DNA of 34,055 bases from a virus: positions 35,055 to 69,109 of IMG/VR virus record IMGVR_UViG_3300030117_008021, one strand, 5' to 3'. Below are positions 2,760 to 33,395 of this stretch, one piece after another. Under the pieces are notes generated by a model. That model had not been told where the DNA came from. It worked only from the letters and a program-made list of their open reading frames with translations, and made no database searches. Each line of letters opens with the position of its first letter. Position 1 is the stretch's first letter. The position numbers and the translations under genes are program-made.

Positions 2760-2788
2760 AGTATAACAACTTTTTTATTAGTTGTCAA
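2760..2788 (-). promoter_or_regulatory. Sigma70-type promoter for the nuclease gene
   Basis: On the minus strand the -35 box is TTGACA (2783-2788), the spacer is exactly 17 bases, and the -10 box is TATACT (2760-2765). The spacer contains a dyad, ACAACT...AGTTGT. The -35 box sits in the last codons of the upstream zincin gene. Transcription should start about 2752-2754, giving a leader of about 16 bases that includes GGAGGG before the TTG start. It shares AAGTDGTTATANT with the promoters at 7622 and 11135. Confidence 0.8.
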
Positions 2789-3473
2789 GTTCTTCTGGAT
2801 TTTGCAGTAAAACTAATTTTTTGTATAGTTCTGGGCTAACTTTTTGTAAAAATCCATGTTCATCGGGATGCAAATAAAATTCAGTAAACCCTGTAGCATA
2901 ATATTCTCTTAGTGACGTTATTGCGTATGGTGTTATAAACACCCCAGCAATCACCGTTGATAATTTATCGTACCCGATTTTTTCGTACAAAAACATATCT
3001 AATTCTTCATTATATTCAGAACTCATAAAAACAGATAATGGAATTTTATATCCCATTTTCCATAAAATATCATGCACATATTTTCTTTTTTTTAGAAATT
3101 CATTTTCAATTTTTTTATCACCATAAAGAAAATATCCGTGTGGCTCTTCTAATGAATGAGAAATTTCGTGAATAACATCATCATACAAATCTGCAAAATC
3201 GTCTTGAATATTAGATATATATAATGTTCCACCTTCGTAAAAAGCATTCAGGCTTCTTTCTTCGAACTCATCAAACCAACCAAAAATAATCATTTCTATT
3301 TCTGAACGCAAATGCATAGGAACAATTGATTCTACTTTAGAAATTACTTTTTCAACGTCAACGTTATCGACAGGATCTTTGAAAAATACGTGTAAGCCTG
3401 ATGATGTATAAAAATCAGACTGCTCACTTAGCATCTGATTTTGTTTCTGGATGATATAATCCTTGAGCATCAT
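2778..3473 (-). CDS. Putative zinc metallopeptidase (HExxH)
   Basis: 231 residues. The zinc-binding motif is H102-E103-I-S-H106, with a following REYYATGFTEFY segment that offers a glutamate (E190 or E198) as third ligand, as in zincin peptidases. No signal peptide or membrane segment is seen, so it probably acts in the cytoplasm or in the particle. The start at 3473 (ATGATG, preceded by AGGAATTA) overlaps the upstream gene by about 50 bases. A later ATG at 3434 would reduce the overlap but lacks a ribosome site. The substrate is unknown. It is unrelated in sequence to the other HExxH protein at 19649-20623. Confidence 0.65.
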   Translation of the reverse strand: MMLKDYIIQKQNQMLSEQSDFYTSSGLHVFFKDPVDNVDVEKVISKVESIVPMHLRSEIEMIIFGWFDEFEERSLNAFYEGGTLYISNIQDDFADLYDDVIHEISHSLEEPHGYFLYGDKKIENEFLKKRKYVHDILWKMGYKIPLSVFMSSEYNEELDMFLYEKIGYDKLSTVIAGVFITPYAITSLREYYATGFTEFYLHPDEHGFLQKVSPELYKKLVLLQNPEELDN

Positions 3474-7117: not shown

Positions 7118-7609
7118 TTATTCCCATAAATAGTTTTTCCACAAATCACTAATCTTTGATGTATTTTTTAAAACACTAGTTTTAGGTTTTGTTGGTCGAC
7201 GTATTGGTATCATACCACATTCTTTTGGTGTTCTGCAACCTTTTTTTTGATTACATTTTTTACATGCCGCTACTAAATTAGTCCAACTTTTTTCTCCGCC
7301 GCGGCTTTTTGGAATAACATGATCAACTGTTAAGTTTTCTGTTGAAAATACTTTTGAGCAGTATTGACATCTATTATTATCTCTCCAAATAATATTTTGT
7401 CGATTACAAGAAATGCCGCCAAAACGATATCGAATAACTTTTGTTAACACAATTACAGCAGGTATTTTAAAAGATTTGGAGGGAGAGCAAATTTCTTTTG
7501 CATAATTTTCAATCGCTTTAGCTTTTCCGATAATACACAATACCAAAGCTTCTACAGCGTCAATAACTTCTACAGGACGATATGTGGCATCTAGTTTTAG
7601 TGCTTTCAT
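7118..7609 (-). CDS. HNH endonuclease
   Basis: 163 residues from ATG 7609. The HNH core is C81-x2-C84, D96-H97 in TVDHVIPKSRGG, N111 in WTNLVAAC, and C116-x2-C119, the zinc-finger form of the fold. The N-terminal 70 residues resemble those of many free-standing phage HNH proteins. An ATG at 7621 is also in frame, but it directly abuts the promoter -10 box, so it would lie upstream of the RNA start; 7609 gives a leader of only about 5-7 bases. HNH proteins nick or cut DNA as homing enzymes, packaging nickases or restriction nucleases. No intron is seen next to it. Confidence 0.85.
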   Translation of the reverse strand: MKALKLDATYRPVEVIDAVEALVLCIIGKAKAIENYAKEICSPSKSFKIPAVIVLTKVIRYRFGGISCNRQNIIWRDNNRCQYCSKVFSTENLTVDHVIPKSRGGEKSWTNLVAACKKCNQKKGCRTPKECGMIPIRRPTKPKTSVLKNTSKISDLWKNYLWE

Positions 7610-7621
7610 AGGCTCATCCAT

Positions 7622-8923: not shown

Positions 8924-9949
8924 CTAAACAGCAGTATCTAATCCGGTATCTCCGGTGTCACCTCCTTCATCTGGAAAATAACGATACCCTACTTCTACTA
9001 AATCATTCCCGCCCGGTATGACCGTAAAGTAAATAGTATTATCTGTAGAAGAGTAATACCAATCATAATTTAAAGCGCCATTTATAAAAACTCTTATCGA
9101 TTCTTCAATAGGTTCATAAGTTAATTGAATGTATTCATGAGGCTCTAAACGAGAAGCTGCATCTATGACTCCAGCGCTCCAATCCTCAGAACAAATATCT
9201 ACAATTTGTCCCATAAAATGATTGGTAGCTTCCATATATCTATCACCTATGTTATAGGTACTTGGAGTTCTTTCACATACTGAGTCTTCTTGCTCTACAT
9301 TTACAATACTAGATAAATACGCTGATCCATTTCTTTGAGTTTGATACCAAGAAATAAACCCATCAACAGTTGGAAAATGATCGTCACTTTGTTCTTCTTC
9401 ATCGGACACAAAAACAATTAATAATGCTGCATCATGCCGCAACCATGTTTGAGCATAAGCATTATTCATCAAATACTCATACGCCGCATCAAAACCTTCC
9501 TCACGATGGCCTCGACCCATGTTACTATACATACCCTCAGCATCTACAATATCATCACCGGGAACTAATGGAAACTGAGCTTCAATAGATGCTTCTCCTG
9601 GATCATTAGACATCATGGCTAATCGCCATCCGCTTTCTGGAAGAGCTAACAACATTGCTTCTATTCCTGCTAACAACTCTTCATCGTAAGCGTTCATAGA
9701 ACCAGATGTATCGATAACCCAAAGAATGTCTACACCATCAACTGATTGAGGTTGAATAAACGAATCTACCCAAACAAGTCCTGGATCTGTTGGCACTTCT
9801 TCATAAATATAAACAGGAACTTCAATTTCTTCATAAACAACATGTATTCCCGAGCCTTCACCAACAAGATGATAATCCATATTAGTTGTGCAGCCAGTTA
9901 AAACGGCTGCTACAAATACTAGCAGTTGTTTAAATAATTTGAGTGCCAT
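8924..9949 (-). CDS. Von Willebrand factor A domain lipoprotein
   Basis: 341 residues. The signal peptide MALKLFKQLLVFVAAVLTGC has lipobox LTGC (Cys20). A vWA domain follows from about residue 74, with the metal-ion site motif D80-T-S-G-S84 and a later strand, LLIVFVSDEEEQSDD, that supplies the distal MIDAS acidic residue. The C-terminus has an acidic G-D-T-G-D-T-G tail. vWA domains bind protein partners through a divalent metal. A lipidated, surface-exposed one in a phage is unusual and suggests a role at the host envelope, such as adhesion or superinfection blocking. The ribosome site (TAGGG) directly touches the ATG, so translation may be weak. Confidence 0.8.
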   Translation of the reverse strand: MALKLFKQLLVFVAAVLTGCTTNMDYHLVGEGSGIHVVYEEIEVPVYIYEEVPTDPGLVWVDSFIQPQSVDGVDILWVIDTSGSMNAYDEELLAGIEAMLLALPESGWRLAMMSNDPGEASIEAQFPLVPGDDIVDAEGMYSNMGRGHREEGFDAAYEYLMNNAYAQTWLRHDAALLIVFVSDEEEQSDDHFPTVDGFISWYQTQRNGSAYLSSIVNVEQEDSVCERTPSTYNIGDRYMEATNHFMGQIVDICSEDWSAGVIDAASRLEPHEYIQLTYEPIEESIRVFINGALNYDWYYSSTDNTIYFTVIPGGNDLVEVGYRYFPDEGGDTGDTGLDTAV

Positions 9950-14452: not shown

Positions 14453-15418
14453 TCAAACAGCTTCAGGTTGTGTTTGCTTATTATCTCCTTTAACCATATC
14501 ATATCCTGCTTTTGCAACAGGCGCTATAGTTTTACCAGCTTTCCATAAACCTGATATCATTCTTAAAGCACCAAGACCTCCAGCTGTCAAAACACCTAAA
14601 CCAGGAAAAGCTATATTTAAAGCAACACCAGATGCCATGCCAATCAACAATTTTGTAAACCAACCTTCTTCTATTAATTCCATTATGGTAAAATTACCTG
14701 CCAGCGCTGCCAAAATAATCGTTGGTTGAAACATAGGACTTTGCCCGTTGACAAGAGCAAAAATCCATAAACCCAGCAATATACCACAAATACCAAGCCT
14801 AGTAAGATAGCCTTTTGAATTTCCAGTTACTTGATCATAACAAAGATTAGCTTTTCTTTCTTCTGGATCGCAAACTTCATCTTCGTTGCCTTTCTTATCA
14901 CCCATAATTTCTACTTCTTCTTTTTTAATATTGTTAATCCAAATTTTGACAGCTTCAGTTGCTTTATCGGCGGCTGGTACTTTTTTTACAATAGCAAAAA
15001 GATCTTTTTGAATTGCCTTAATAAGGCCATATGCGGTATCGAAAATTTCTTTAAAACTTGATAGAGACCAATCTATAATTTCAAAAAGTTTATAAAATAA
15101 TCCATTCCATGAAGTAAGTAATTTATAAAAGCCTTTGGCTGATGTGCCAATTGCTTTGGCTAGATTTTTTACTGTTTTCCAAATATTTGAAAACCACCCT
15201 TTTTTAGGAACACCTTCTTCTTTATCTTCTTGATCTACTTCAAAAAGAAAATTGTGTTTGGTTGATTCTGATAAAACCATAAACTTTTCGGCTCTTTGGC
15301 AAAACTTTTCATATCTTTCATCAAGTTTTTCTAAATCTATCGATGAAGAATTAGCGTAATGGCGCCAGTTCTCCATGATTAAATTCATAGAATTGCAGTT
15401 TAAAGTTTTTGTTCTCAT
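14453..15418 (-). CDS. Membrane-embedded putative virion protein with MENWR peptide
   Basis: 321 residues. The N-terminus carries MNLIMENWRHYA at residues 11-22, related to the MKLLMENWR peptides of the 25608-27083 genes. Amphipathic helices follow (about 85-160), then three hydrophobic segments: ICGILLGLWIFALVNG, TIILAALAGNFTI and LLIGMASGVALNIAFPGLG. An (L/I)xE site in FLFE60 could be a prohead-protease cleavage point. The layout (targeting peptide, helical linker, membrane part) suggests a protein packaged in the head and delivered to the host membrane. It is adjacent to, and built like, the gene at 15433-16821. No enzyme motif is seen. Confidence 0.62.
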   Translation of the reverse strand: MRTKTLNCNSMNLIMENWRHYANSSSIDLEKLDERYEKFCQRAEKFMVLSESTKHNFLFEVDQEDKEEGVPKKGWFSNIWKTVKNLAKAIGTSAKGFYKLLTSWNGLFYKLFEIIDWSLSSFKEIFDTAYGLIKAIQKDLFAIVKKVPAADKATEAVKIWINNIKKEEVEIMGDKKGNEDEVCDPEERKANLCYDQVTGNSKGYLTRLGICGILLGLWIFALVNGQSPMFQPTIILAALAGNFTIMELIEEGWFTKLLIGMASGVALNIAFPGLGVLTAGGLGALRMISGLWKAGKTIAPVAKAGYDMVKGDNKQTQPEAV

Positions 15419-15432
15419 AATATTTTAGGTAC

Positions 15433-16821
15433 TTATCTAGCAATTTCAACAACTTTTGGTATTAAATCGTCTCTGCCGGCGTTTCTTAAGGCTTGAGTAA
15501 GCTTTTGAACGTAAGGTATATATCCTGTTGGACCATGCGGATTCGGTCTTTTTTCCATTAAAGCTTTTACTCCTTCAAGAATGTCTTCATCGCTTAAAAC
15601 TTCTATTTGTGGAGGAACCTGATCACCGATCGGATATTTAAAAATTTTCTCAAACATCGATGCAGTTTCAGTTGCATTCATAGCTGCTTCAGCGCCAGCG
15701 CCAGCCGCACCAAATTCAGGGTGATCGCCTACCTTTCCAGATTCAAACCACTCTATATGCCCTTCAGCTTTTGCTTTTGCTTGTTCATATGACTGTTTAT
15801 ATCCATCTAATCGTGCATATATTTGATCTGTGTTATCATATGCATCTTCAAGCGCTTTTTGCTCTTCTGGTTTTATTTCTCCATAACCCATGGCTGGTTC
15901 CCCTGCGGCCTCCCAATCTGCTTTAGCTTGCTTTGCTGTTTGTACGGCATCAATATATTCTTGTTTTTGTTCTCTCATTACTTTTACAGCTGCTAATGAT
16001 GCTGTATCGCCATATTCAAAAACTGCACGAAAATCATTTAAATCAACTACTTCGCCTCTTTTTGCTGCGTTATAACAAGCAGTTAATGATGCTTGAGCTT
16101 GTGTATATGCTTGAGCCTCTGCTTTGTCAACACCTCCTTTAGCTTCTTCAAGAAACCCCATCGCTCTTTGATAATCACCTTCAGACAAAACTTCACCAGC
16201 GACAATACATTTACCTTCTACTTCTGTTACTGCACCAATTGCTTGTGTACATAAAGGCTGGTCGCCGGCCGCTTCTGATTTATTTCGTAATTTTTCAAGA
16301 TAATTTACAACTATGGTAGCAATTGCAACAAGAGCAAGTATTACCAAGCCAGCCACAACTATTTTAAAAAGTGTTGGAAATTTAGTTTTGAATTTAACAA
16401 CAAGTTTGAAAATCCAAGACATTACTTTCCATACTACATTTTTTGCTTTTTTTACAAATCTTCCAAACATGTTGACACCCTTGTTAACAATATTTGATAA
16501 TTTGTTTACAATTCCTGGCGATGGAACTTCTTGCTCTTTTAGTAAAGAAGCTTTGTAAATGCGATTAAATTCTTGCACTTCATAAAGCCAAGATTTTTCT
16601 AGTATAGATTCAAGTTGTTTTTCTGTAAGTTTTTTAGAATCAAATTTACGCTCTATTTCGTCTAACAACACGACTGTTGGAACAGAATTGTTACTTTCAA
16701 ATAAATAAACTTTATTATCTGCTGGTCCTCCCATATCATCTAATACGTTTTGAAATCTTCTAAAGTTTTCCATAATCATATGCATGGAATTAGGATTATT
16801 ATTTAATGGTTTTCTTCTCAT
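15433..16821 (-). CDS. Putative virion protein with MENFR peptide, one TM helix, Ala-rich helical tail
   Basis: 462 residues. Residues 13-23 read MHMIMENFRRF, a divergent copy of the shared MENWR peptide. YLFE42 offers an LxE cleavage site. One strong membrane helix, FKIVVAGLVILALVAIATIV, lies near residue 160, and the rest is Ala/Glu-rich helix (QAYTQAQASLTA and similar), probably elongated. The first six residues and overall plan resemble the 14453-15418 product, suggesting paralogy. Its start overlaps the stop of the acidic protein gene by 4 bases. The role is unknown; internal head or ejected protein is my best inference. Confidence 0.62.
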   Translation of the reverse strand: MRRKPLNNNPNSMHMIMENFRRFQNVLDDMGGPADNKVYLFESNNSVPTVVLLDEIERKFDSKKLTEKQLESILEKSWLYEVQEFNRIYKASLLKEQEVPSPGIVNKLSNIVNKGVNMFGRFVKKAKNVVWKVMSWIFKLVVKFKTKFPTLFKIVVAGLVILALVAIATIVVNYLEKLRNKSEAAGDQPLCTQAIGAVTEVEGKCIVAGEVLSEGDYQRAMGFLEEAKGGVDKAEAQAYTQAQASLTACYNAAKRGEVVDLNDFRAVFEYGDTASLAAVKVMREQKQEYIDAVQTAKQAKADWEAAGEPAMGYGEIKPEEQKALEDAYDNTDQIYARLDGYKQSYEQAKAKAEGHIEWFESGKVGDHPEFGAAGAGAEAAMNATETASMFEKIFKYPIGDQVPPQIEVLSDEDILEGVKALMEKRPNPHGPTGYIPYVQKLTQALRNAGRDDLIPKVVEIAR

Positions 16822-17600
16822 AGTTCAAACTCCAGTTCTTCTTCTCCGCCTAAATCCAATTCATCTCCACCGGCTGGCTCTTCTTGTTTGGCTGTATCAT
16901 ATGCTTGATTGCTTGGCTCATCAACCTTTCCGGCTAATTCGCCTTCAAACTTATCAAAATAAAGTTTAAGATTGGCAATTAAGTAATCATAAAACAATTC
17001 TTGATCTTCTGGATTAGAAAGTAGTTCATAAGAATCAATAATGCTATTTTCAACCTTTTTAAAACTATTGTAAGCCATATTGCGACCGGTTTCATCGCCC
17101 TCTACACCAGCACCAAAATCATCACGTGGATCAGTCTCGTCAGACTCTTCTTCAGCTTTCTTTTCTGCGTCTGTGCGAATGTCAATAAATTTATCATCCT
17201 CACCAGTTATGTCAATATCAATAACTTCATCTAAATCTTGTGCCTTATCATCAGCTTTATTATTAATTTTTGCGGGAGTAAGTGTGTTAATAACAGCATT
17301 AATAATATGTGCCCTAAAGGATTGTCTTTGAGATTCATCAGTGGTTAGAGATTTGAAGTCTGCTTCTAAAACAGGAATAATTTTCTTTAATAGTTCTTCA
17401 AGAACATTAATTCCAGTTGATTTATTTGGCGCTGGATCTACATCAGGTGTAGAAGACTCAGACAGCATGCTTTTTAATTCTAATCTAAGTAACTTTTTTA
17501 ATGACTTACGAATTTCTTTTTCTTCGTTTAGTTTTTTTGCCTTGACATGTCGAATCAAATAACGTATATTTTCTCTTAAAACTTGTTCATCTTTATTCAT
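16818..17600 (-). CDS. Acidic hypothetical protein, 260 residues
   Basis: Basic helical N-terminus MNKDEQVLRENIRYLIRHVK, then a very acidic middle (DLDEVIDIDITGEDDKFIDI) and an acidic C-terminus ending GGEEELEFEL. Its N-terminal L-R-E-N-x-R pattern resembles the MENWR peptide, with L8-R-E10 a possible cleavage site. Acidic, helix-rich phage proteins of this kind can be scaffold or internal proteins, but I do not recognise this family. The gene overlaps the ligase-NMNAT gene by 4 bases (ATGA) and the next gene by 4, so it is coupled on both sides. Confidence 0.6.
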   Translation of the reverse strand: MNKDEQVLRENIRYLIRHVKAKKLNEEKEIRKSLKKLLRLELKSMLSESSTPDVDPAPNKSTGINVLEELLKKIIPVLEADFKSLTTDESQRQSFRAHIINAVINTLTPAKINNKADDKAQDLDEVIDIDITGEDDKFIDIRTDAEKKAEEESDETDPRDDFGAGVEGDETGRNMAYNSFKKVENSIIDSYELLSNPEDQELFYDYLIANLKLYFDKFEGELAGKVDEPSNQAYDTAKQEEPAGGDELDLGGEEELEFEL

Positions 17601-19645
17601 TTTGCGATGCCTCTTTCCATAATTAGTTTAATAATATCGTCAACAAGATTTAAGTCAATATTTTCTTGTCTAATAATAGAGTTTTGTTTTTTCTTTTTAC
17701 TACCACCAGCAACATTACCACCTGCCATACCTGATAATTCTTCTAAATTTTCTATTCCTAAAATTTTTAAAACACCATCAACATTATCGCCAGCAAAATC
17801 CATTAGTTGTTCTTTATTTGCTGAAATATCTCCTAAGAGATTTCTCATATCCGTGGCGCTAAAAGGTTCACCACTTGGTCTAATAAGAGGTTCAACCGCA
17901 CTTTCCATTGGAGGTACAAGATTTAAATCACTTCCTACGTATCGATCAGCTCCCGTCCAACGTTTTGCGTCTCCGCCTTTATTACTAGCGCCTAAAATAA
18001 TTGTATCTCCAGCACTAATCGGATCCATGCCCATTTTTTCTGCAGCTTTTTCTCGCTGCCCGGCCTTTCCGCTAATTTCATAAGCTGCGTTTATTGGAGA
18101 AGCGTGAGATGATTCATAGACTTCTACTTTTGGATTGGCTCCCACAAACAGATTCCAGATTTGACGAGAGTGATCAGCGGTGATTTCTTTTCCATTTGGA
18201 AGTTTTCTAGCATTTTTAGTAGGGGCTGAAATCAAAACTATAACTCGATTAGCAACTTGAGCATATTGCTCTACCATGTTAACATGGCCCATGTGAGGTG
18301 GTTTAAAAGCGCCTGGAACAATTGCAATCGTTTCATTCTGCACAGGCTCGTTTTCAAATTCCACATCAACAACAGGATCTTCTAGTTCATCTTCAATTTC
18401 TAAAACTAATTCATCTTCAAGTTCTTCTGACATGCCAGAACGTCTTGCTCGACCAATAATTTGATTTGCCATGGCAAAAGCGCCAGTTAATTTATAAATG
18501 CGATCAGAACCTGGAGGGTATTCAAATACAACGCCTTCAAGAGATGATGCAAGGTTTTCTATTTTACCTAATTTTGCCAATTGTTTATCAACTAGCTCAC
18601 CCATTTTTTCATCACCAGAGCTTTGTAAACTTTTTAAATATACAATTGACTGTTGAAGTTCACTACGCATGCGCTCAACTTCTTCATCATGCTCATCAAC
18701 AAAAAAGCTTTTAACACCGCGCAAAACTTCAATAGCAAAATCACTAATTGCAATTTCTAATGGTCTCAATACAGAAGCAATATATTTTCTTGATTTTGTT
18801 TTTGAGCCTAAGTTTGAAACAACTGATTGTAGCTCTTTAGGTAAACCTTTCTTCAATCCTGTAACTTTAATACCACGTTCTTTGGCTCCATCTGGATCTA
18901 ACATTAGCATCAAAAGAGGCTCCAAAATGTTTTCTGGGAGTCCAACCTGCTCAGTATATTTTTTAACAACTAAACCAACATAATCACCTAATGTTGCATT
19001 CATACCTACAGGAGATGCAAATCCTTGTATTTTAGATGCAACTTCTTCAAGTGCTGAGCCATCTGCTAATTTTTTTAAAGCAATTATTTTAGGACCGTGT
19101 ATGTTCCAATCTTCTTCGCCGACATTTTGTTTACCCCCGTCTACTGCTTTAACTAAAGAATAAAACTTTTCTTTTGCTAAGCTTCGTTGTTCTGAGCTTT
19201 CGTCATCTCCAAAATATTGCAATCCGTGCAAAACTATATTAGGTGCAGAATAAGATATAATGTTAGGGTTTGCAGGATACATTATCTCCATGTTAACGTA
19301 TCTCTGTCCGTTTGAAAAAATATCCTCAAGTGTTTCTGGGCTAAGCTTTTTTAAAGCGGCTGAAATAGCTTTAAAGCCGTTTGTAAAAGCATTTTCTGCT
19401 GGGTGTCCCTTCCATTTGCTAATATATTCATCGGTAGTCATACCACCTTTTTGCACATCGCCATTATTGCGAGCTGTGCGTATTTCTCCATTAGCAACAG
19501 TTAAAAATAAATTTTGACCATCAACTTTTTCAGTAGTATTTTTTATATCTGCGGCCGCAACTTTAGAAAGAATGCTAACTATCTCATTAAAAGTTAGATC
19601 CAAGTCTTCTGATAAATGGGCCATGTGCCCAGCGACACCGCCCAT
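17597..19645 (-). CDS. Fusion: ATP-dependent ligase-like domain plus NMNAT-like nucleotidyltransferase
   Basis: 682 residues. The N-terminal part has ligase/capping nucleotidyltransferase motifs: K40-V-D-G43 (motif I, lysine that takes AMP), RTARN (56-60), VNMEIMYP (117-124, motif III-like), LEGVVFEY (369-376, motif IV) and K385 in YKLTG (motif V). A long insert separates III and IV. The C-terminal part (about 438-640) is a Rossmann nucleotidyltransferase with PGAFKPPHMGHVNM (H451-x2-H454) and PFSATDMRNLL, like the S-x-T-x-x-R motif of NMN adenylyltransferases. It may ligate RNA ends and make NAD. An acidic linker joins the halves. Start at 19645 (MGGVAGHMAHL), with AAGG upstream; M8 is an alternative. 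Confidence 0.75.
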   Translation of the reverse strand: MGGVAGHMAHLSEDLDLTFNEIVSILSKVAAADIKNTTEKVDGQNLFLTVANGEIRTARNNGDVQKGGMTTDEYISKWKGHPAENAFTNGFKAISAALKKLSPETLEDIFSNGQRYVNMEIMYPANPNIISYSAPNIVLHGLQYFGDDESSEQRSLAKEKFYSLVKAVDGGKQNVGEEDWNIHGPKIIALKKLADGSALEEVASKIQGFASPVGMNATLGDYVGLVVKKYTEQVGLPENILEPLLMLMLDPDGAKERGIKVTGLKKGLPKELQSVVSNLGSKTKSRKYIASVLRPLEIAISDFAIEVLRGVKSFFVDEHDEEVERMRSELQQSIVYLKSLQSSGDEKMGELVDKQLAKLGKIENLASSLEGVVFEYPPGSDRIYKLTGAFAMANQIIGRARRSGMSEELEDELVLEIEDELEDPVVDVEFENEPVQNETIAIVPGAFKPPHMGHVNMVEQYAQVANRVIVLISAPTKNARKLPNGKEITADHSRQIWNLFVGANPKVEVYESSHASPINAAYEISGKAGQREKAAEKMGMDPISAGDTIILGASNKGGDAKRWTGADRYVGSDLNLVPPMESAVEPLIRPSGEPFSATDMRNLLGDISANKEQLMDFAGDNVDGVLKILGIENLEELSGMAGGNVAGGSKKKKQNSIIRQENIDLNLVDDIIKLIMERGIAK

Positions 19646-19648
19646 AAC

Positions 19649-20623
19649 TTATGCCTTTGTAGCTTTATTAAAAGCGTTAGTTAACGATTCTTTAATTTGT
19701 TCTGAAGTGTATCCAGCATCATGAAGACGTTTAACTGACTCACGAACACGATCGGCATGCCCCATACGTCGCTCATCGCCTTGCTCAGAGTTTTCGCTAC
19801 GATTTGCTCGGCCGCCTTCTTCCAATTCGTCATCGTCTTCGTCTCTTTTTCCGGGACCACCATGACCTTCAGCTAAACTAGCATTAGTAACTTGAATATC
19901 TTCAGCAGCTACGTTTTCAAGTATAGTACCGTCAGATAATTTCATATCATAGTGCGTTACCCGACCAAGCTCTTCATTATAATTATGCTTCACAGCTTCT
20001 GCCATTTCAATTGTTCCATTATGTTGAACACCGCCATGATGCACACAATAATGATTAGGTGCAAAAATCTGCTCTCCTTCCTCATTTACAACCTTTTTAT
20101 GTTGATCATTTTCTAAATTTTCTGCAAGAGGTTTGAACTCAAACCCAAATCTTTCCATTAGGAGACCATTAAGCTCCTGATTTTTCCAATTTTTTGTAGA
20201 CATTGAACTTTTATCTCCTTTTTGTAAATGTTCGTAGTAAATAGTGCCTTTTTGGCTGTCTTCCCAATCTCTAAACACAATAGATGCTTGATATGCTTCA
20301 ATTTCCATGTTTCTCATGTGCGGATCCGCTTGCGCATAGCCTTGTTCGCCCATATTTGTTACTTTATCAAACTCTCCGTTGCAATTTTGTGTATGATGCA
20401 TCAGTTCATGCGCAAGAGAGCGCATAATATCTTTAGGGTGCCTATCGGTTATATAAAGCGTAATTGACTCATTTTGAGGGTCATAAAAGCCTGTTTTACC
20501 CATAGGATTAGCTGCATTTTGTTGATTTTGACGCAAAAATAGCTTTGGAGGTCGATCAAACCCCATTTGCTGCTGTGCAAACGGCATAAATCGTTGAATT
20601 AGCGGCTTTAACACGTCAATCAT
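19649..20623 (-). CDS. Zinc metallopeptidase-like protein (HELMHH)
   Basis: 324 residues. The zinc motif is H72-E73-L-M-H76-H77 in AHELMHHTQ, with E107/E109 in MEIEAY as likely third ligand, the gluzincin order. The region after residue 150 is different: NGLLMERFGFEF (147-158) resembles the MENWR peptides, then beta strands, an acidic linker (DEDDDELEEGGR) and a helical end with TSEQIKESLTNAF. It may be a processing protease or an internal virion enzyme. The start at 20623 overlaps the VOC gene stop by 8 bases. It precedes the ligase-NMNAT gene by 3 bases. Confidence 0.68.
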   Translation of the reverse strand: MIDVLKPLIQRFMPFAQQQMGFDRPPKLFLRQNQQNAANPMGKTGFYDPQNESITLYITDRHPKDIMRSLAHELMHHTQNCNGEFDKVTNMGEQGYAQADPHMRNMEIEAYQASIVFRDWEDSQKGTIYYEHLQKGDKSSMSTKNWKNQELNGLLMERFGFEFKPLAENLENDQHKKVVNEEGEQIFAPNHYCVHHGGVQHNGTIEMAEAVKHNYNEELGRVTHYDMKLSDGTILENVAAEDIQVTNASLAEGHGGPGKRDEDDDELEEGGRANRSENSEQGDERRMGHADRVRESVKRLHDAGYTSEQIKESLTNAFNKATKA

Positions 20624-25607: not shown

Positions 25608-26270
25608 CTATCCACGTATGTAATTATATAGTTCTTGATCTGATACTTCATCTTTTCTATGATTGTGGTTTTTAATTTGTTGCATTAGTTCTGTATCACT
25701 CATTTTAAATAATACTTGTGGCCCAATTCCACTTTGCATGTTTGCATTTAAAGTTAAAGATAATAATGCATCAGCAATTGCTACAGAGGCTTCTTTGCCT
25801 GAGCTTTCTTTAATAAGTCCTTCGCGCTTTGCATAATCTGGAATAAACACTTGCGTTTCACCACCTAGTAAATGATCAGGAATGTCTTTACGAGAGTAAG
25901 AAGGAATTTCTATTTCTTCCTCTTCTTTTTCTTCAGGGTATTTCAAGCCGTATTTTTTCATGTATTCTTGTTCGCTTTTTGTAAGCGCTTCAAACGTTCT
26001 GCCTTTGAGTGCTCTTTGTAAAAGTATTTCAAGAACATCTTGTTCGGTAATGTCTGGGTCTTGATTAAAGACTTTAATCATTCTCCATACCATTGGAACA
26101 CGCGCCATTAACATAGCGGCCTGCCTATTAACAAATACTCTTGGGTTTTCTACTTCGGGATAAAATTCACTTTTTCCCATTTTATCAAGAACTGTATTAA
26201 CTGCTGCGTCCTTCTCAAACACACTAATCTCTGTTAAATACTGTCGCCAATTTTCAAATAGGAGTTTCAT
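25608..26270 (-). CDS. Capsid-targeting-like peptide plus unknown 206-residue domain
   Basis: 220 residues starting MKLLFENWRQYLTE, the same first 14 residues in type as the next two genes upstream, with LTE14 as a possible prohead-protease cut. The rest is helical with charged stretches (EKEEEEIEIPSYSRKDIPDH). No catalytic motif, cysteine pair or membrane helix is recognised. By analogy with T4 internal proteins it could be packaged and injected, but its function is unknown. GAGGTTATAA upstream of ATG 26270 acts as ribosome site. It overlaps the ADP-ribosyltransferase-like gene by 17 bases. Confidence 0.65.
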   Translation of the reverse strand: MKLLFENWRQYLTEISVFEKDAAVNTVLDKMGKSEFYPEVENPRVFVNRQAAMLMARVPMVWRMIKVFNQDPDITEQDVLEILLQRALKGRTFEALTKSEQEYMKKYGLKYPEEKEEEEIEIPSYSRKDIPDHLLGGETQVFIPDYAKREGLIKESSGKEASVAIADALLSLTLNANMQSGIGPQVLFKMSDTELMQQIKNHNHRKDEVSDQELYNYIRG

Positions 26271-26634
26271 TTATAACCTCCACTTGATCATAATCCTTGA
26301 TGAAAACATAACCACCGGGAAGCTCGACGTAATCATCACCTATAACTTTCATAGTTATAACCTTGCCATATCCTTCAGCATTTTCTCTATCTTTTGTCGC
26401 GTTAATCCCAATGGTTGCCTCTTTCGCCCATTGAGGGAGTTCTGTCTCCTCATCGAAACCTCTTTCTATAGCGTAGTTCATCACTTCTGAGTCTTTGGGA
26501 ATAATGTCCTTGGTAAGAGACAACTGCCCGGTTTCCAAATATTTATCATATACAAAATCTGGTATACCTCGATATACAATCAGGTCTTCACCCTCATTCA
26601 AATACTCTCGCCAATTTTCCATTAAGAGTTTCAT
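26254..26634 (-). CDS. ADP-ribosyltransferase-like protein with capsid-targeting-like peptide
   Basis: 126 residues. After MKLLMENWREYLNE (possible cut after LNE14), the body fits a small R-S-E ADP-ribosyltransferase: R22 in VYRGIP, an N-A-T-K-D-R-E-N-A-E-G-Y-G stretch (78-90) in the S/T-x-x position, and Q117-V-E119 as the Q-x-E end motif. These enzymes move ADP-ribose from NAD to an arginine (or other residue) of a target protein. T4 Alt is a capsid-packaged ADP-ribosyltransferase that modifies host RNA polymerase, a close functional parallel. The fold assignment is by motif order only. The stop and start overlap neighbours by 4-17 bases, so the three genes are coupled. Confidence 0.6.
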   Translation of the reverse strand: MKLLMENWREYLNEGEDLIVYRGIPDFVYDKYLETGQLSLTKDIIPKDSEVMNYAIERGFDEETELPQWAKEATIGINATKDRENAEGYGKVITMKVIGDDYVELPGGYVFIKDYDQVEVINETPI

Positions 26635-27083
26635 CTTAAAACTTCCTCAACTTTTCCACAAACCTCAATAGGATCAATTGGTTTGTAGTCTTGCTCTCCA
26701 AATTCATTAGACATTGCTGGTTTACCACCAGCTTCTGGATTGGTGGCAATTGTGATATGCGGAAGACCTTCAATTTTGTTATAAAGGTTTTGACTTTCTG
26801 CATCAACTCTCACGGCAATAACGCGCTCATTTTGCGCTATACCTGTAATCGTTAAACATCCTTCATAAAATTGATCAGTTGGCAAACGTTGCTTTTGTTC
26901 TGTCGGCGGGATCATCGTCATGTGATGTGCATATACCTTCCAACCTTCGGGCGCTAGCTGTGCTAGTTTTTGATGCGAGGCTTCATCTAAAATAAATCCC
27001 GTATACTCAATTGATTTTGCCATGTCGTGCCCCATGGCAACTTCATTTACATACTTCCGCCAATTTTCCATTAAAAGTTTCAT
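26631..27083 (-). CDS. 2H phosphoesterase-like protein with capsid-targeting-like peptide
   Basis: 150 residues. MKLLMENWRKYVNE (possible cut after VNE14) precedes a domain with two H-x-T motifs: H54-M-T56 in AHHMTMIP and H109-I-T111 in LPHITIAT, the paired catalytic motifs of 2H phosphoesterases (LigT/CPDase superfamily). Such enzymes open 2',3'-cyclic phosphates or cut cyclic oligonucleotides. T4 Acb1, an anti-CBASS enzyme of about 150 residues, is in the same superfamily. A role against host cyclic-nucleotide defence or in RNA end repair is inferred. It overlaps the ADP-ribosyltransferase-like gene by 4 bases, and abuts the LamG-like gene. Confidence 0.65.
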   Translation of the reverse strand: MKLLMENWRKYVNEVAMGHDMAKSIEYTGFILDEASHQKLAQLAPEGWKVYAHHMTMIPPTEQKQRLPTDQFYEGCLTITGIAQNERVIAVRVDAESQNLYNKIEGLPHITIATNPEAGGKPAMSNEFGEQDYKPIDPIEVCGKVEEVLR

Positions 27084-28522
27084 TATCGACCATATCCTTT
27101 TGGTGTTTTATTCCAGCCCGGTGTTCCTAAAGGTGGTAAATTATTTATAGCTGTGTCAATTTTTGTTCCGTGTGAAGCATTAGTTAATTTTCCATGCCAG
27201 CCATATGGACCTAAATCTTTAACTGTAATTCCATTTCCTTCATTAAATCTCCAATATGCTACAAGGCCATCTCCACCTGAACTTTTGTGGTTATAGCCAG
27301 TTCCATTATCATATACATCCCTAATCCAATTGTTATCTTTAACTTCATTATAAATAGCTATTTCATCAAGTCCACACGCATTTCCATTATTATATTTAAC
27401 ATTTCTTAATCCTGATTCTGAATCTGTTCCACTAGCTACTACCGCCCTCATGCCAAAAGCTAAACCGCGCGCCATCTGAGCACCAGTATGGCTCGTCCAG
27501 TTCACAGATTGTTTTCCTTCACCAAATCCCCCATATATATGATATCCATTTATGTAAAATTTTTGGAGCATATTCCCATCATCATCAGGGTTATCAGTAC
27601 CGGCATATGTTACTACAATATGATACCAGTTGCCCAGTATTAATTTATTACCAGAGCCAGGGGCTGTTCCTTCACCATTATTTAATAATGTGTTTGATAA
27701 TTCTGAATTACCTGAATCATCAAACATATCAGCCCAAGTTGTGTTATTTACTTCTGAAGTGCCTATTTCAAACCATGGTTTTGACGCATTTCTTATTCCA
27801 AAACCAAATCTGGAATGTTCATCTCTTTTCCAACCAATTGAAAATGAATCACTATAGGATTCATCTGGTCTCCACCAATAAGATATAGTAAATCCTGATT
27901 CTGCAAGTGGCTTTCTACCAGAGCCTTCCGCAAAACCTCTATTTGTGGGATCATTAGGGGTAAACGATGTTGCAACCAAATCTGCCCGCGCAGCTGCTGC
28001 ATCATTACCGGTAAATGATAAGAAATAATTGGGCAAAATTTTGCGGGCCTTACCGCGAGTTCTGTGGCGCCGTTTTGCTAGTAAATTATCTCGTTTAAAA
28101 ATTTCCATCGCTCGCTCATAATCTAAATCAGCGAGTTTAAGATTAAGAGGATCCGACAACCAACTATTCCAATCAAGTTCTTGAAGAGAGGGCTCGCGTT
28201 TTTTAATTATAACTCTTATTTGTTCAAGTATCTCACTCTTTTGCTGTAATCGGTTAACCTTAGCTATCAAAGTATCAACTTGTTCATTCCATTTTTGTTC
28301 TTGTAGTTTTTGTTTTTTTTGAATATATTTTTGACGAAGGCGTTTGTCTTCCTGTTGTTTTAAAAAAAGTTTTTTACGTGCAGCGATTTCTTTCTGCTCG
28401 CGGACTTCGGCTTCTGCTTTAGCAACGCGTTGTGCCTCTTTCTCGGCCTCTAATTTGGCTTCTTTTGCCCATTTTCTTTCCAGTTGTTTTTGTTTGCGCT
28501 TCATATACTCTATAGTTATCAT
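27083..28522 (-). CDS. Coiled coil plus LamG-like (concanavalin) structural protein
   Basis: 479 residues from ATG 28522, which has GGAG 9 bases upstream and overlaps the previous stop as ATGA; a GTG at 28537 is less likely. Residues 1-110 are a charged, Lys/Glu/Gln-rich coiled coil (KLEAEKEAQRVAKAEAEVRE). Residues 170-480 show the LamG/concanavalin jelly-roll pattern: FTISYWWRP, LILGNWYHIVVTYAG, NGYHIYG, GLDEIAIYN and GLVAYWRFNEGNG. Such domains bind glycans or act as virion decoration or host-recognition modules. A TATAAATA lies inside the 3' end (27142-27149), which could serve the cargo genes downstream, but is probably chance. Confidence 0.75.
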   Translation of the reverse strand: MITIEYMKRKQKQLERKWAKEAKLEAEKEAQRVAKAEAEVREQKEIAARKKLFLKQQEDKRLRQKYIQKKQKLQEQKWNEQVDTLIAKVNRLQQKSEILEQIRVIIKKREPSLQELDWNSWLSDPLNLKLADLDYERAMEIFKRDNLLAKRRHRTRGKARKILPNYFLSFTGNDAAAARADLVATSFTPNDPTNRGFAEGSGRKPLAESGFTISYWWRPDESYSDSFSIGWKRDEHSRFGFGIRNASKPWFEIGTSEVNNTTWADMFDDSGNSELSNTLLNNGEGTAPGSGNKLILGNWYHIVVTYAGTDNPDDDGNMLQKFYINGYHIYGGFGEGKQSVNWTSHTGAQMARGLAFGMRAVVASGTDSESGLRNVKYNNGNACGLDEIAIYNEVKDNNWIRDVYDNGTGYNHKSSGGDGLVAYWRFNEGNGITVKDLGPYGWHGKLTNASHGTKIDTAINNLPPLGTPGWNKTPKGYGR

Positions 28523-30954
28523 ATAAATCTTCTCCACACTTCTCCGAGATTTTTAAGATCATCAAAGTTGCGTTGTTTTTCAGCAGGAGGCTGCCCAAGT
28601 TTAACGCCATTATTGTAAGCTTCTTCTCGTAAAGCGCCCATAAATGCCTTTGCAATTTCGTCTTCATCATCCATATCACCAGTAACTAGTTCATAAAACT
28701 GTGCTACAAGGTCGTCAGGGGTGTCTGCGTTGACGTGAAAAGTTATACTATAGCGAACTTCGCCTCCGACTTCTACTGCGCTCTTGTTACGAATAGAGAG
28801 CCAATATTCGCCGCCTGTTTCTTCTCTAGCCTGCGCAGTTAAGTATCCCCTAAGACGAAGCGCAAACTCTCTACGATCTACGAGATCGAACAAAATTCTT
28901 GGTTCAATTCCTAACTCTTCGGGATCAAAATCATAAGATACTGTGGCCCATGCTTCGTATGACTCAGTATAGTGTTCTTTGTCATATTCTACATCCCATT
29001 CATAGGCGCCAATCTCTTTATTCTCAATTTTTTGTGCTAAGCTTATATAAGCGTGACCTTCGAGCCAGCCTTGTTCTTTCGCATATTGTTCTACAAGTGC
29101 TATAAACATGTCTCGTTTATTATCAAGCTGGTTAATGCCCTCACAAAAGTGCTCAAAACCGTCAGCATCAAATACTATTTTTTGACCTCCCATGTTTGGT
29201 ACTAGTTTATTATTAAACTCACAACGCCAAACAATTTCTGGATGCTCTTCTGTTCCGCCCCGATAAATTGCGCCCTTGTCGTCATCAAACAGATCTCCAG
29301 ATGCTCCTTCTGGATCGTAGTAATATTGATTTAAATAATCGGCGATATCTTGACCCTTAACTACATTTGGAAGCTGCTTCCATTCCGATATATCCCAAGT
29401 AAGCATTATTTTTCCTTCTGGGATAACATACCAATCGCCTTCACCCGAATCATCTCTAACGTAAAAGTCGACTTTGCAATTAGCATACATCCCAGAGTTC
29501 CACTTTTCTCTAACTTCAGCACAGTCGCGCTTAAGTAAAGCTTCAACATCGCCGACCCATTCAGGCGGCATATCTTGTTCTGTTTCTTGATTTTGTCTGA
29601 CTTGACCCATAAAATATTCTACGGGAAGATTAATAAGATTTGATAATAGTTTTTTACGGCCGCCGTATCCTTGTGTGTCTTCATAAGAACCTCCATAAAT
29701 TTCAAAATTATCTAAGTTAATTTTTCCATCTTTCTTTGGAAGTTTATCAAATACACCTTCTTGTTTTTGTCTCGCCCAACTGGTTACGGTACTAATAAGA
29801 CCAGGAACCTTGAGACCATATACAAAATTTTCAGGCACGGCTAATTCTTTGCCATATTCCTCTTCTTCTCCATCAAAGTCGCGATAATAACGAAACTGCC
29901 TTAATCTTGTTCGAGAAACTGGATCTAGCTCTAAATTTGAACCATTTAAGTATCGGGCTTGCTCAATAAAAATTTCATCATACTCTTCAAGTTCTTGCTC
30001 GGCGCTTTCTACGTTGCCTGTATTTGTTGCTGAGAGTAATTCTTCAGTTTCCACCACATAAGCAATCGCTCCGTGACCCTGCGCTTCAGCAACTGCGCAC
30101 TTATAATATTCTTGTTTGCCTCCCGCACGACTTGAAGGTGTGTGGCATGATGTTATATTGTCAAAATCGGACATACGCATAACATCTATAGGATGTCGCG
30201 TTAAAATAATAGAATATTGGTCATTTTCAAGATTTTCGATGTTATCTTTGATGTATTCTGCGTTTTTCATCCAATATTCGCCTAATCTTTCAAAGTTTTC
30301 AATATTTTTAGTTCCAAATTTCCAATCTCTATCTGGTCCAAGGTACCAATTTAGATTAGACTCTAATACGTACAAATATTTACGCTCTTTATCGTCTAAT
30401 GCCTTTTCAATTTCCTCACCAGTAAGATTTTGTGGTTGCGATACTTCTCTATCTCCATACTCAAATGTCCAATCCATTGCTTTTTGATGTAATGCGTTTA
30501 ATTTTCTACCATCATCGGCCATTTTTTTAAAAAATTTACCAATTTTCATTTGTATTTTCTTAACACGGTCTGCTTTCCACTCTCTACCTTGAAGGCGAGC
30601 TAAATCAGCATCAAGCGATTCGTCTCTAAACTCCTTTTCAGCATAAATTAAACCTTTTTCCCACTCAATATCGTATCCAAGTTCGTTTTGCAGCAAGTTT
30701 ACAAACTGTCCAAGCTCTGTAGACGTGTCTGTTGTTGGAAATGGTATAACAAGACGTGTTTTATCACCAAAAATTTCATCAAAAGCTAAAACTCCCTTTG
30801 GATTATCCGCAAGTTTTTGCAAAATTGCTTCGACACCCTTCATTTCAGAGTCAGAAATCTCTCTAAGTAAAACTTCGGTTGTCAAATCGGAATTTTTCGA
30901 GATTTTTTCAAGCAAAAGTATTGCTTTTTGTAAAATTTGCTCATCAGTCAGCAT
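28519..30954 (-). CDS. Large unknown protein, 811 residues
   Basis: I recognise no domain. It is acidic, mixed helix and strand. A Cys-containing stretch with SDFDNITSCHTPSS (about residue 262) and YYKCAVAEAQGHGAIAYVV follows. A coiled region lies near the N-terminus, and the end is DDLKNLGEVWRRFI. The Cys/His content around 265-300 might bind metal or form a cysteine active site, but no known signature fits. Its size and place, directly upstream of the LamG-like and cargo genes, suggest a virion or infection protein. ATG 30954 has a weak AAGG site. Confidence 0.7.
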   Translation of the reverse strand: MLTDEQILQKAILLLEKISKNSDLTTEVLLREISDSEMKGVEAILQKLADNPKGVLAFDEIFGDKTRLVIPFPTTDTSTELGQFVNLLQNELGYDIEWEKGLIYAEKEFRDESLDADLARLQGREWKADRVKKIQMKIGKFFKKMADDGRKLNALHQKAMDWTFEYGDREVSQPQNLTGEEIEKALDDKERKYLYVLESNLNWYLGPDRDWKFGTKNIENFERLGEYWMKNAEYIKDNIENLENDQYSIILTRHPIDVMRMSDFDNITSCHTPSSRAGGKQEYYKCAVAEAQGHGAIAYVVETEELLSATNTGNVESAEQELEEYDEIFIEQARYLNGSNLELDPVSRTRLRQFRYYRDFDGEEEEYGKELAVPENFVYGLKVPGLISTVTSWARQKQEGVFDKLPKKDGKINLDNFEIYGGSYEDTQGYGGRKKLLSNLINLPVEYFMGQVRQNQETEQDMPPEWVGDVEALLKRDCAEVREKWNSGMYANCKVDFYVRDDSGEGDWYVIPEGKIMLTWDISEWKQLPNVVKGQDIADYLNQYYYDPEGASGDLFDDDKGAIYRGGTEEHPEIVWRCEFNNKLVPNMGGQKIVFDADGFEHFCEGINQLDNKRDMFIALVEQYAKEQGWLEGHAYISLAQKIENKEIGAYEWDVEYDKEHYTESYEAWATVSYDFDPEELGIEPRILFDLVDRREFALRLRGYLTAQAREETGGEYWLSIRNKSAVEVGGEVRYSITFHVNADTPDDLVAQFYELVTGDMDDEDEIAKAFMGALREEAYNNGVKLGQPPAEKQRNFDDLKNLGEVWRRFI

Positions 30955-30957: not shown

Positions 30958-32211
30958 TTACTTACCTTTTTTACTATATTTACCTGAACACTTCCATTTT
31001 TGTCTAGAAAGGCATAAAGGCGTCCCTCTATCTTTTCCAGAGCAATCTTTTCCGTGAGATTTCATATCTCCATAAGATCTAGCGCAGTATGCGTTACCTT
31101 TTCCAGTTCCAGGTTTAATTCTTGGACCCCCACCTTTTGCTTTGCCCGATTGACCATAAGAAACACACCTTCCTTTGACTCTTCTGGCAAATTTTTTACC
31201 TTTAGATGGTTTGCATGCCTTCTTTTTCTTGGCTTCTTTAAGTTCTTGTTCTTCATCTAAAAGCCCATAGTATAGTGCTTCCTCTAACATGCTTTCAATT
31301 TCTTCATAAAGAGCAATTGATATCTTTTTATTTTCGTCGCCATAAGTTTTACAAGGATCTTGGCCACACCCACAGTTTTTCATCTCATAAAGGTCTTTGT
31401 TTTCTTCTACGGGCACACAATTTGGAACCATTTTGCCGCCTTTATCTTTCATTCCTACTTGTTTATAGCCGTCCCAGCATTTTTCTGTTAGTACTGCTTC
31501 CTCTACTTTCTTATCTTTAGGGTCTTCTGTCTGATCTAGGATTTTTTTGATGCGATCAGACTGGCCTTTATGCATTTTTGAAGCTCCTGCAAGCTCATCA
31601 CTAATTTTTTCAAGCTCTTTTTCGTGTTTAGCTGAGTGAGTTTCAAGTAAAACTTGCGACAATTCATCTTCAATCATAATTTGAAGTGATTCTTTCTTAG
31701 AGTTACCCCAATTTTTAGCGCCAACCTTGCGACATTTAACCAAAGCACCGGATGCATATGCACTTGGCCACACTTTATAGCGAGATTTTACCTTATGATA
31801 GCATGCATCTTTTTTACCAGACTTCTTTTTCTTCTTTTTCTTTTCATCAAGAACAGCTTCAAGCTCTTCAGCTACAATTTTTTCTAAACTCATGTATAAA
31901 TCCTCATTTTTCTTTGATTTTTTCTTTTTTTTCTTGTCAGTAGAGACATACGTTGGCTTTGCAGCGCCTGATTTTTGTGGCTGGCCAGGATCTGCTTCTC
32001 TTTTTCTTCGTTGTGCAGATTCGCGTTCTTTCTTAGACATGCTAGCGCGCTTTGCAGACGATACACACTTAGGTGTAGTTTTCTGTCCAGGCTGTCTTGC
32101 ACATGGTTTTCCTGAAACTACTTGAACCCAGCCCGGCTTTCCGCCTTTTGATTTAGATTTGCTAAACCAATCTCTTAAATTTTCAACTATTTCGTCGTAA
32201 AGATCTTCCAT
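30958..32211 (-). CDS. Lys/Cys-rich DUF5872-like protein
   Basis: 417 residues from ATG 32211 (MEDLYDEIVENLRDW), chosen over an upstream TTG because AGGATTTGATAAAA gives correct spacing. Three small Cys-containing modules are separated by poly-Lys/Glu linkers: KPGWVQVVSGKPCARQPGQK then KCVSS (DUF5872-like); DACYHKVKSRYKVWPSAYAS then KCRKVGAKNWG; and a C-terminal part with KWKCSGKYSKKGK. Such Lys-rich, Cys-pair proteins are frequent in marine phages and giant viruses and may bind DNA or RNA. I-V-E10 is a possible prohead cut. It overlaps the Nudix gene by 29 bases. Confidence 0.68.
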   Translation of the reverse strand: MEDLYDEIVENLRDWFSKSKSKGGKPGWVQVVSGKPCARQPGQKTTPKCVSSAKRASMSKKERESAQRRKREADPGQPQKSGAAKPTYVSTDKKKKKKSKKNEDLYMSLEKIVAEELEAVLDEKKKKKKKSGKKDACYHKVKSRYKVWPSAYASGALVKCRKVGAKNWGNSKKESLQIMIEDELSQVLLETHSAKHEKELEKISDELAGASKMHKGQSDRIKKILDQTEDPKDKKVEEAVLTEKCWDGYKQVGMKDKGGKMVPNCVPVEENKDLYEMKNCGCGQDPCKTYGDENKKISIALYEEIESMLEEALYYGLLDEEQELKEAKKKKACKPSKGKKFARRVKGRCVSYGQSGKAKGGGPRIKPGTGKGNAYCARSYGDMKSHGKDCSGKDRGTPLCLSRQKWKCSGKYSKKGK

Positions 32212-32659
32212 TTTTATCAAATCCTGCTAATTTTAAAGCTTTCTTCAATAAATAGTTAGGTATTTCGCTATTCTCAAGCTCTTTTATCTCTTCGATTGTT
32301 AGCCATTTATAAGCGTCATGCTCAATTTCACCCGTCTCTGGATTGGGTCTGTCAACATTTACGTTTCCGCTCCACTTTTGAGTCAAAAAATAGTGTTTGT
32401 CAGGCTTTGGTTCGCCTAAGTATGTCAAATCAGAGATTTTGCATGTTAGACCAGCCTCTTCATTAAGCTCTCTGACAGCACCGGCCTCGATAGAACCGTC
32501 TTTTTCATCAACATGACCCCCTGGAAGTGTCCATTCACCCTCTCGATCATCAATATCGGAGCGCCTAATAACAAGAAATTGTTGCTCATCGTTAAGACAG
32601 GCAACAACTCCTACTGTTTTTAACTCACCTTCGGTGAGAAATTTGTTCCATTTGGTCAT
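32183..32659 (-). CDS. Nudix hydrolase with short N-terminal extension
   Basis: 158 residues. The Nudix box is GGHVDEKDGSIEAG then AVRELNEEAGL; it has one extra residue before the REL-x-EE-x-G core relative to the G-x5-E-x7-REU-x-EE-x-GU consensus, so catalysis should be checked. The N-terminus MTKWNKFLTEG carries a W-x-K-F-L-T-E pattern akin to the cargo peptides (cut after LTE10). Nudix enzymes cleave nucleoside diphosphates linked to another group, such as ADP-ribose, NADH, dinucleotides or mRNA caps. It overlaps the protease gene stop by 4 bases. Confidence 0.8.
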   Translation of the reverse strand: MTKWNKFLTEGELKTVGVVACLNDEQQFLVIRRSDIDDREGEWTLPGGHVDEKDGSIEAGAVRELNEEAGLTCKISDLTYLGEPKPDKHYFLTQKWSGNVNVDRPNPETGEIEHDAYKWLTIEEIKELENSEIPNYLLKKALKLAGFDKNGRSLRRNS

Positions 32660-33381
32660 TTTCTACATGCTTTAGGTTCATCTTCAAGAGCGATACATAA
32701 TTCTTTGATAGCAAGCTTCATATCTAAGTTTTGAATTGGAGAAACCCAGATCATATTTTCTTGAACTTGCAAATCCGGTCGTCTTTCGATGTCAACACCC
32801 CATAGTATACCAACAATTTCGCCGTTTGTATCATAAATAACGGATCCGCTGCAGCCAAACCATCCATAAGTATTGAGCATAAGCTGCGGGCCTGCGCCAG
32901 GAAGAGTCTCAACACCAGCTACATAGCCACGATATGTCATTAAACTGTGCCATGAAGGATGACCAGAGTAAGTAATAGCTGCACCGATGGGCGCTAACTC
33001 TTCTCTTGGGCTATATTTAAGACCTCTTCCTTCTAAGTGATTGCCTGGCCGCATCCACAACACAGCGATGTCATTTAACGGATCCGCATATACCAACATG
33101 GCTTTTTCTAAAGTATTTCCGTTCATAATAAAATACTCGCTTCCTATGCGGCCGCTCGCCACGTGTTGCGCAGTTAAAACCAATTGCATATCATGGTATT
33201 TTATAATGCTGCCGGAACCATGACCATATCCGTCAGTAATTTTGACAGCGGCTTCTCTTACCTTTTTCTCGTTTTTATTTAAGCCTTCCTCAATAGATAC
33301 TGTTTGGAAGTCTCCGGGAGGATCCGCTAATGCCATAGTCGAAACCATCAATCCCATTAATAAAGCAAATAACTTTCTCAT
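32656..33381 (-). CDS. Exported trypsin-like serine protease (S1)
   Basis: 241 residues from ATG 33381 (MRKLFALL); an earlier ATG at 33387 is too close to AAGGAG. The signal peptide is about 19-20 residues, ending ALAD. The catalytic triad is visible: H73 in LTAQHVA, D104 in DPLNDIAVL and S178 in GCSGSVI. Cysteines sit near the C-terminus (C229, C239). No PDZ domain follows, so it is a plain trypsin/DegP-core enzyme. It should act in the host periplasm, on envelope or virion proteins. A phage-coded exported protease is uncommon. Confidence 0.85.
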   Translation of the reverse strand: MRKLFALLMGLMVSTMALADPPGDFQTVSIEEGLNKNEKKVREAAVKITDGYGHGSGSIIKYHDMQLVLTAQHVASGRIGSEYFIMNGNTLEKAMLVYADPLNDIAVLWMRPGNHLEGRGLKYSPREELAPIGAAITYSGHPSWHSLMTYRGYVAGVETLPGAGPQLMLNTYGWFGCSGSVIYDTNGEIVGILWGVDIERRPDLQVQENMIWVSPIQNLDMKLAIKELCIALEDEPKACRK

Positions 33382-33395
33382 AATCATACTCCTTT

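Follow-up and report, generated by a model that had tools for sequence, protein, structure and literature searches.

Why should three neighbouring genes of a virus begin with the same 14 residues and have nothing in common thereafter? The question arises from a stretch of 34,055 nucleotides, here called the window, which corresponds to positions 35055-69109 of a virus record 69,109 bases long (IMGVR_UViG_3300030117_008021) and is a fragment of a T4-type myophage. The first 10 kb of the record contain baseplate-type genes, behind which comes a large glycan-synthesis cluster; both are recognised by reading the sequence. The genes in question, and the shared peptide that we call the tag, are the following:

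26631..27083 (-), tagged gene 1: 150 aa, 2H phosphoesterase body (HHMT...PHIT; Pfam tRNA_lig_CPD 3.5e-7, above cut-off)
27042..27083 (-), tag of gene 1, MKLLMENWRKYVNE, residues 1-14; cut predicted after E14
26254..26634 (-), tagged gene 2: 126 aa, no relatives of the body detected; from a reading of motifs alone, perhaps ADP-ribosyltransferase-like
26593..26634 (-), tag of gene 2, MKLLMENWREYLNE
25608..26270 (-), tagged gene 3: 220 aa, C-terminal part in common with a tagged kinase-like protein (L226:4678-5868)
26229..26270 (-), tag of gene 3, MKLLFENWRQYLTE

The earlier note had described three consecutive minus-strand genes (27083-26631, 26634-26254 and 26270-25608) with common first 14 residues and unrelated bodies, all with L-x-E at residue 6 and (L/V)-x-E at residue 14. 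This is exact in every point. The genes overlap by 4 (1/2) and 17 bases (2/3), and a comparison of the three bodies among themselves revealed no similarity.

Is the shared peptide more than chance? IMG/VR viral contigs were scanned with a position-blind degenerate DNA pattern for hhhENW[RS]x[YF]hxE; the control pattern had the residue order reversed and the specified bases kept. The motif was met at no fewer than 120 loci with at least 161 matches, the reversed one at a single locus, which rules out a chance origin. Among the matches listed, about 159 of 161 are N-terminal. An ATG is seen not more than 12 residues upstream in 150 of the 161 listed; in most of the other 11, VK or LK directly precedes the motif, which, to judge from these residues, probably reflects GTG and TTG starts. 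The only clearly non-N-terminal case among the listed matches is a spurious frame of 34 residues, present in two contigs. In prokaryotes (84,980 bacterial and archaeal genomes, 257 Gb) the pattern matched 24 stretches, the majority of them inside proteins or in very small frames. Merely L203 (with a HAD-type body), L207 (two matches) and L215 look like tags, and all of them belong to metagenome-assembled genomes. With so few tag-like cases in 257 Gb, the tag cannot be regarded as a feature of cellular proteins. No isolate record with the exact tag was retrieved by tblastn against a phage collection of 50,697 records.

How varied are the proteins behind the tag? At least 297 distinct tagged proteins were collected from all loci. 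After removal of the first 16 residues, their bodies form at least 147 clusters (BLAST 1e-3), a handful of which may be chance N-termini. The alignment of 134 cluster representatives has the consensus MKLLxENWRxYLxE and no further common block. Pfam (PHROGs and PADLOC were also run) identifies among the bodies NUDIX, tRNA-ligase CPD (2H), DUF192, PGDYG, peptidase M23, guanylate kinase, zeta toxin, RNase T, protein kinase, GNAT, nucleotidyltransferase, 5'-nucleotidase and others, mostly in a single cluster each. A HAD body is also found, as is a portal match, which may be a chance N-terminus. The earlier note had suggested that the tag could be portable, had expected a motif search to yield N-termini only and unrelated bodies, and would have given up its reading if the motif had been as frequent internally or in non-phage proteins. 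The expectation was fulfilled, the IMG/VR and prokaryote scans did not meet the refuting case, and the variety of bodies, with its many enzyme families, makes the tag portable indeed.

In contigs related to the window, several tagged genes follow each other, often with 4-base overlaps, and the content of this cassette differs from phage to phage. The cassette is located beside a homologue of 28519-30954 or a repetitive tail-fibre-like gene. L226 and L237 have four tagged genes each, L255 three, and L250 two plus a short-tagged HAD gene; neighbouring tagged genes are commoner than expected in three of four genomes. The shared peptide could also be a by-product of plain gene duplication or of an element acting at the level of DNA or translation, e.g., a recombination site or an expression leader. 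Codon use in the tag is non-random (CTC CTA CTT is frequent), and tags of one contig resemble each other more closely in their DNA (0.88) than do tags of different contigs (0.78). The 158 genes, however, carry 155 distinct nucleotide versions of the tag; what is conserved is therefore the peptide rather than the DNA. Moreover, the short forms described below have just four key residues in common, and the bodies come from unrelated folds, which speaks against duplication. We thus find an origin of this kind hardly credible. For the T4 late-promoter motif TATAAATA there are only raw counts, which are uninformative.

Within the tag, the glutamate near its end is constrained. In 114 proteins chosen solely by MKhhhENW[RS], not by hxE, an hxE is found within residues 10-17 in 97 cases, as compared to 14-18 of 114 for later segments, and residue 11 is aromatic or H in 103. 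E14 is present in 113 of 151 tags; about a quarter lack it. Several of the latter have one extra residue yet keep the hxE (e.g., KYLLTE, EFILTE), a shift that accounts for only some of them.

The nearest known parallel is the signal of the T4 internal protein IPIII, MKTYQEFIAE/A (the stroke marks the cut), in which, as a review of work on the T4 head reports, residues 4 and 7 are needed for targeting and residues 8 and 10 for processing; aspartate at residue 10 blocks processing, but not targeting (PMC9026906). If the cut sites are aligned, W8, Y/F11, L12 and E14 of the tag fall on Y4, F7, I8 and E10 of IPIII. A core built from the four mutagenised positions, [WYF]xx[YFW][LIVM]xE, which T4 IPII and IPIII match, was counted over the open frames of four contigs, namely that of the window and three tagged ones of 190-203 kb. 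It occurs at 26 of 11385 positions in the first 15 residues versus 26 of 190971 elsewhere (odds ratio 16.8, p 4e-19). Replacing E by D, K or Q leaves 1, 0 and 0 N-terminal matches; aromatics two or four residues apart yield 1 and 1, i.e., no enrichment, and the reversed core yields 5 (odds ratio 2.1, not significant). Without the ENW-type tags the enrichment is lower but persists (odds ratio 4.6, p 0.002). The remaining matches include MKAFKEYLEE, MSFFKSWRQFLNE and MSFDKWREFLAE. These forms, like MTKWNKFLTE of the window, bridge to the T4 peptide, with which the tag has no sequence identity beyond the four positions. What mutagenesis had shown for positions 4, 7, 8 and 10 of IPIII is thereby checked independently, on the basis of sequences.

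The tag shares with the IPI/IPII/IPIII signal that it is a short N-terminal peptide on unrelated proteins, with aromatic-x-x-aromatic-(I/L)-x-E spacing and an hxE cut consensus, in phages having gp21 and gp23. In contrast to the T4 signal of 10 residues, it comprises 14, and its fixed LLxENWR part is absent from T4. There, three small basic proteins are labelled; here, about ten genes per genome and a cargo that consists mostly of enzymes. Also, cutting and packaging of the tagged proteins are only inferred here.

Does the conserved glutamate mark a cut? Another gene of the window bears on this:

31642..31650 (-), codons of LLE ahead of THSAKHEKEL, inside gene 30958-32220; predicted internal cut site, where orthologues swap to a tag

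The product of 30958-32220 contains an internal LLE/THSAKHEKELEKISDEL. In seven other contigs the orthologous body is preceded by VAE/, FLE/, LQE/, FTE/, LQE/, LSE/ or LVE/, and the upstream parts differ: some are ENW tags, some short tags, others long segments. Despite these differences, conservation in the eight orthologous bodies begins at the residue directly after hxE, as is to be expected if a protease cuts at that point. Peptidase_S77, the family of gp21, is detected above the curated cut-off in each of the 12 tagged contigs that reach 139 kb or more and in 17 of the 27 tagged contigs of all sizes tested. These counts stem from other tagged contigs, as the window's own fragment stops short of the head genes, and part of the coincidence is no surprise in contigs that are all T4-type and were selected by their tag. 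Given the four common positions, the glutamate that D, K or Q does not replace, the bodies starting behind it and the encoded prohead protease, the earlier note's reading of the peptide as a T4-type capsid-targeting sequence is supported.

In nine contigs with gp23, the propeptide of this capsid protein ends in an LxE site, ...LLENQA(K/A)(E/Q)LL(R/K)E, with A, S, N or Q as the next residue, and its spacing from EN to E equals that of the tags that are one residue longer. On the strength of this pattern, the tag could mimic or derive from the gp23 propeptide. In L190:16214-18004, and likewise in L191-L198, the propeptide end LLENQAKELLRE/A resembles the tag LLENWRKYLNE. Common descent of the two is not claimed, because too few residues agree.

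The same helix might carry another address: the host membrane, the tail or baseplate, or a compartment made by the phage, with the glutamate belonging to the binding face and not to a cut site. LLxENWRxYL is amphipathic, the products of 14453-15418 and 15433-16821 retain the helix without an hxE (see below), and the cassette adjoins tail-fibre-like genes. A residue of a binding face, however, would not explain why E is not swapped for D or Q, why insertion variants move it yet retain hxE, why the conserved bodies begin directly behind it and why the four positions are those of the mutagenised T4 signal. This reading appears very unlikely to us.

Most probably, and we say so with considerable confidence, the tag is a capsid-targeting sequence of the T4-type lineage that is cut after the glutamate and delivers cargo enzymes for ejection, although core binding, cutting, packaging and ejection are all inferred. 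During head assembly, the amphipathic N-terminal helix would bind to the prohead core, chiefly via W8 and Y/F11, and the fused enzyme would be enclosed. Cleavage by a gp21-type prohead protease would follow, behind the glutamate of (L/I/V)-x-E14 or, in the insertion variants, one residue further on, and the mature enzyme thus freed would be ejected into the host together with the DNA. The predicted cargo of the window would be the 2H phosphoesterase, the unidentified protein that is perhaps ADP-ribosyltransferase-like, the protein with the kinase-related C-terminal part and the short-tagged Nudix enzyme.

A targeting and cleavage signal does not by itself tell where the bodies work. They might act in the head or its assembly, as core, scaffold or DNA-organising proteins, instead of being injected effectors: IPIII has an effect on the assembly of the T4 head (PMC9026906), several of the bodies behind the tag are acidic or of low complexity, and in one contig a tag-like gene (MKLLLEHWNRYLQE) is situated within the head cluster. 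Yet many bodies are recognisable enzymes without any known structural role, and phages differ in what their cassettes contain, as would suit effectors more than components of an assembly. We consider an assembly role unlikely.

Beyond the three tagged genes, the window contains shorter and weaker forms:

32183..32659 (-), Nudix hydrolase with short tag MTKWNKFLTE/G; spacing and length as in T4 MKTYQEFIAE/A
32630..32659 (-), short tag MTKWNKFLTE
15353..15388 (-), MNLIMENWRHYA, degenerate form of the tag within gene 14453-15418; retains the aromatic core but has no hxE; membership uncertain
16753..16785 (-), MHMIMENFRRF, likewise degenerate, within gene 15433-16821; again the aromatic core without an hxE; membership uncertain

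Five weaker relatives had been suspected, and one of them holds: the Nudix enzyme, whose short tag is conserved across orthologues. Where the window has MTKWNKFLTE/GELKTVG, these have MKYTWNRFLTE/, MSINKWNSYLTE/, MNRKWITFLDE/, MPVNKKWSDFLNE/ and others; related Nudix proteins bear MKLLLENWQEVLNE or MKRLFENWHHFINE, and short and long tags therefore occur on the same kind of enzyme. The gene at 16818 was discarded, as its orthologues have ILRQSIREIIR or LRSSIRSLIRYVK there, and so was 19649, in which the match is internal. The genes at 14453 and 15433 remain uncertain, with a core that lacks the glutamate. By analogy, their products may be packaged but uncut, like the E10D variant of T4, or their tags may have decayed. 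These two genes are adjacent, have tag-like starts (ENWRHYA and ENFRRF, respectively) without a cut site and encode hydrophobic, membrane-like segments; 15433 occupies the position that the tagged gene L076:11625-12389 has in a 203-kb contig. The HNH-type endonuclease 7118-7621 ends ...ISDLWKNYLWE-stop, with the W-x-x-Y-L-x-E core at the extreme C-terminus, which may be chance. Alt and gp21 of T4 undergo C-terminal processing as well.

Of the presumed cargo of the window, 26631-27083 has a body that is a 2H phosphoesterase. H54, T56, H109 and T111, i.e., both HxT motifs, are invariant in five homologues. In the structural model (pLDDT 79) the tag is a detached helix of low confidence, and Foldseek places 2H proteins first (E 1.6e-3 for PDB, 4e-5 for viral models): fungal tRNA ligase and CNPase and, among viral models, a giant-virus RNA ligase and phage Acb1. 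The body thus shares two HxT motifs and the fold with tRNA ligase CPD, CNPase and Acb1, but differs from them by its tag and by an identity of just 10-22%. With so low an identity, RNA-end repair and cyclic-nucleotide cleavage cannot be distinguished; removal of RNA 2',3'-cyclic phosphates and cleavage of defence nucleotides, both inferred, are plausible activities. For 26254-26634, searches yielded no ADP-ribosyltransferase profile match and no PDB sequence match, and the model is poor (pLDDT 39). This protein and several other tagged ones perhaps resemble ADP-ribosyltransferases, by eye; no tool confirmed it.

A packaged ADP-ribosyltransferase would have a precedent in T4 Alt, likewise a head-borne enzyme with a short propeptide (7 residues) that is injected to act on the host (PMC9026906); no homology of the possibly ADP-ribosyltransferase-like bodies to Alt was, however, detected. 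A comparable arrangement is seen in the giant phages SPN3US and phiKZ, where the prohead protease removes N-terminal propeptides from ejection proteins (PMC5694885). There the propeptides mostly exceed 100 residues, whereas the tags here have 10-16.

Taken further, the cassette could be a standardised payload system, refilled with new enzymes by recombination (perhaps with the tag DNA as homology) and letting each virion deliver several protein effectors together, ahead of the expression of any phage gene: kinases, 2H and Nudix enzymes, ADP-ribosyltransferase-like proteins and nucleases. This view is tentative, and we hold it to be somewhat less likely than not. If it is true, the tag would point out injected proteins for host takeover and anti-defence, in well over a hundred families that are mostly uncharacterised. 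Only for very few phages is it known what they inject in addition to DNA, because virion proteomics is needed to find it. A label of 14 residues, by contrast, is legible in metagenomes and marks candidate cargo in uncultured viruses; most of the body clusters have no assigned function. It could also serve, ready-made, to bring enzymes into phage heads. That T4-like phages carry varied proteins by this kind of signal has already been stated (PMC9026906); the capsid-targeting idea is here extended from a few internal proteins to an apparently general loading system. Neither the ENWR peptide nor a survey of such tags in marine phages was found in the literature searched. As far as this literature shows, the kind of signal is known from T4, while its uniformity, its spread over at least 147 clusters and its use as a cargo reader have not been described.

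The nearest isolates by gp23 include Flavobacterium phage immuto, Microcystis phage Mel-JY01 and Rhodothermus phage RM378. In immuto, four genes begin with MENFDLKKFLVEN or close variants (L279:1803, L281:3806, L281:17631 and L281:18632). The repeated N-terminus of this phage's own suggests a second tag family, i.e., a lineage-specific version of one scheme, as far as can be inferred from the peptides.

Some other genes of the window deserve mention. The product of 32656-33387 looks like a phage-encoded trypsin-like serine protease (GHGSG...GCSGSVIYD) with a signal-peptide-like N-terminus, and 8924-9949 starts like a lipoprotein and continues with a VWA-like domain (VIDTSGSMNAYDEE), which is unusual for a phage; both were identified by eye only. 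Zincin-like metallopeptidases are encoded by 2778-3473 (HEISHSLEE) and 19649-20623 (HELMHHTQN), each conserved across many tagged phages. In 17597-19645 a TEKVDGQN part, RNA-ligase/nucleotidyltransferase-like by eye, is joined to a cytidylyltransferase-like domain (Pfam); relatives of varied architecture occupy the same position in many tagged phages. Finally, bases 12362-37019 of contig G000, which cover positions 1-1965 of the window, contain an unbroken series of more than 20 sugar-nucleotide, glycosyltransferase, aminotransferase and epimerase-like genes, and a similar block is annotated in immuto.
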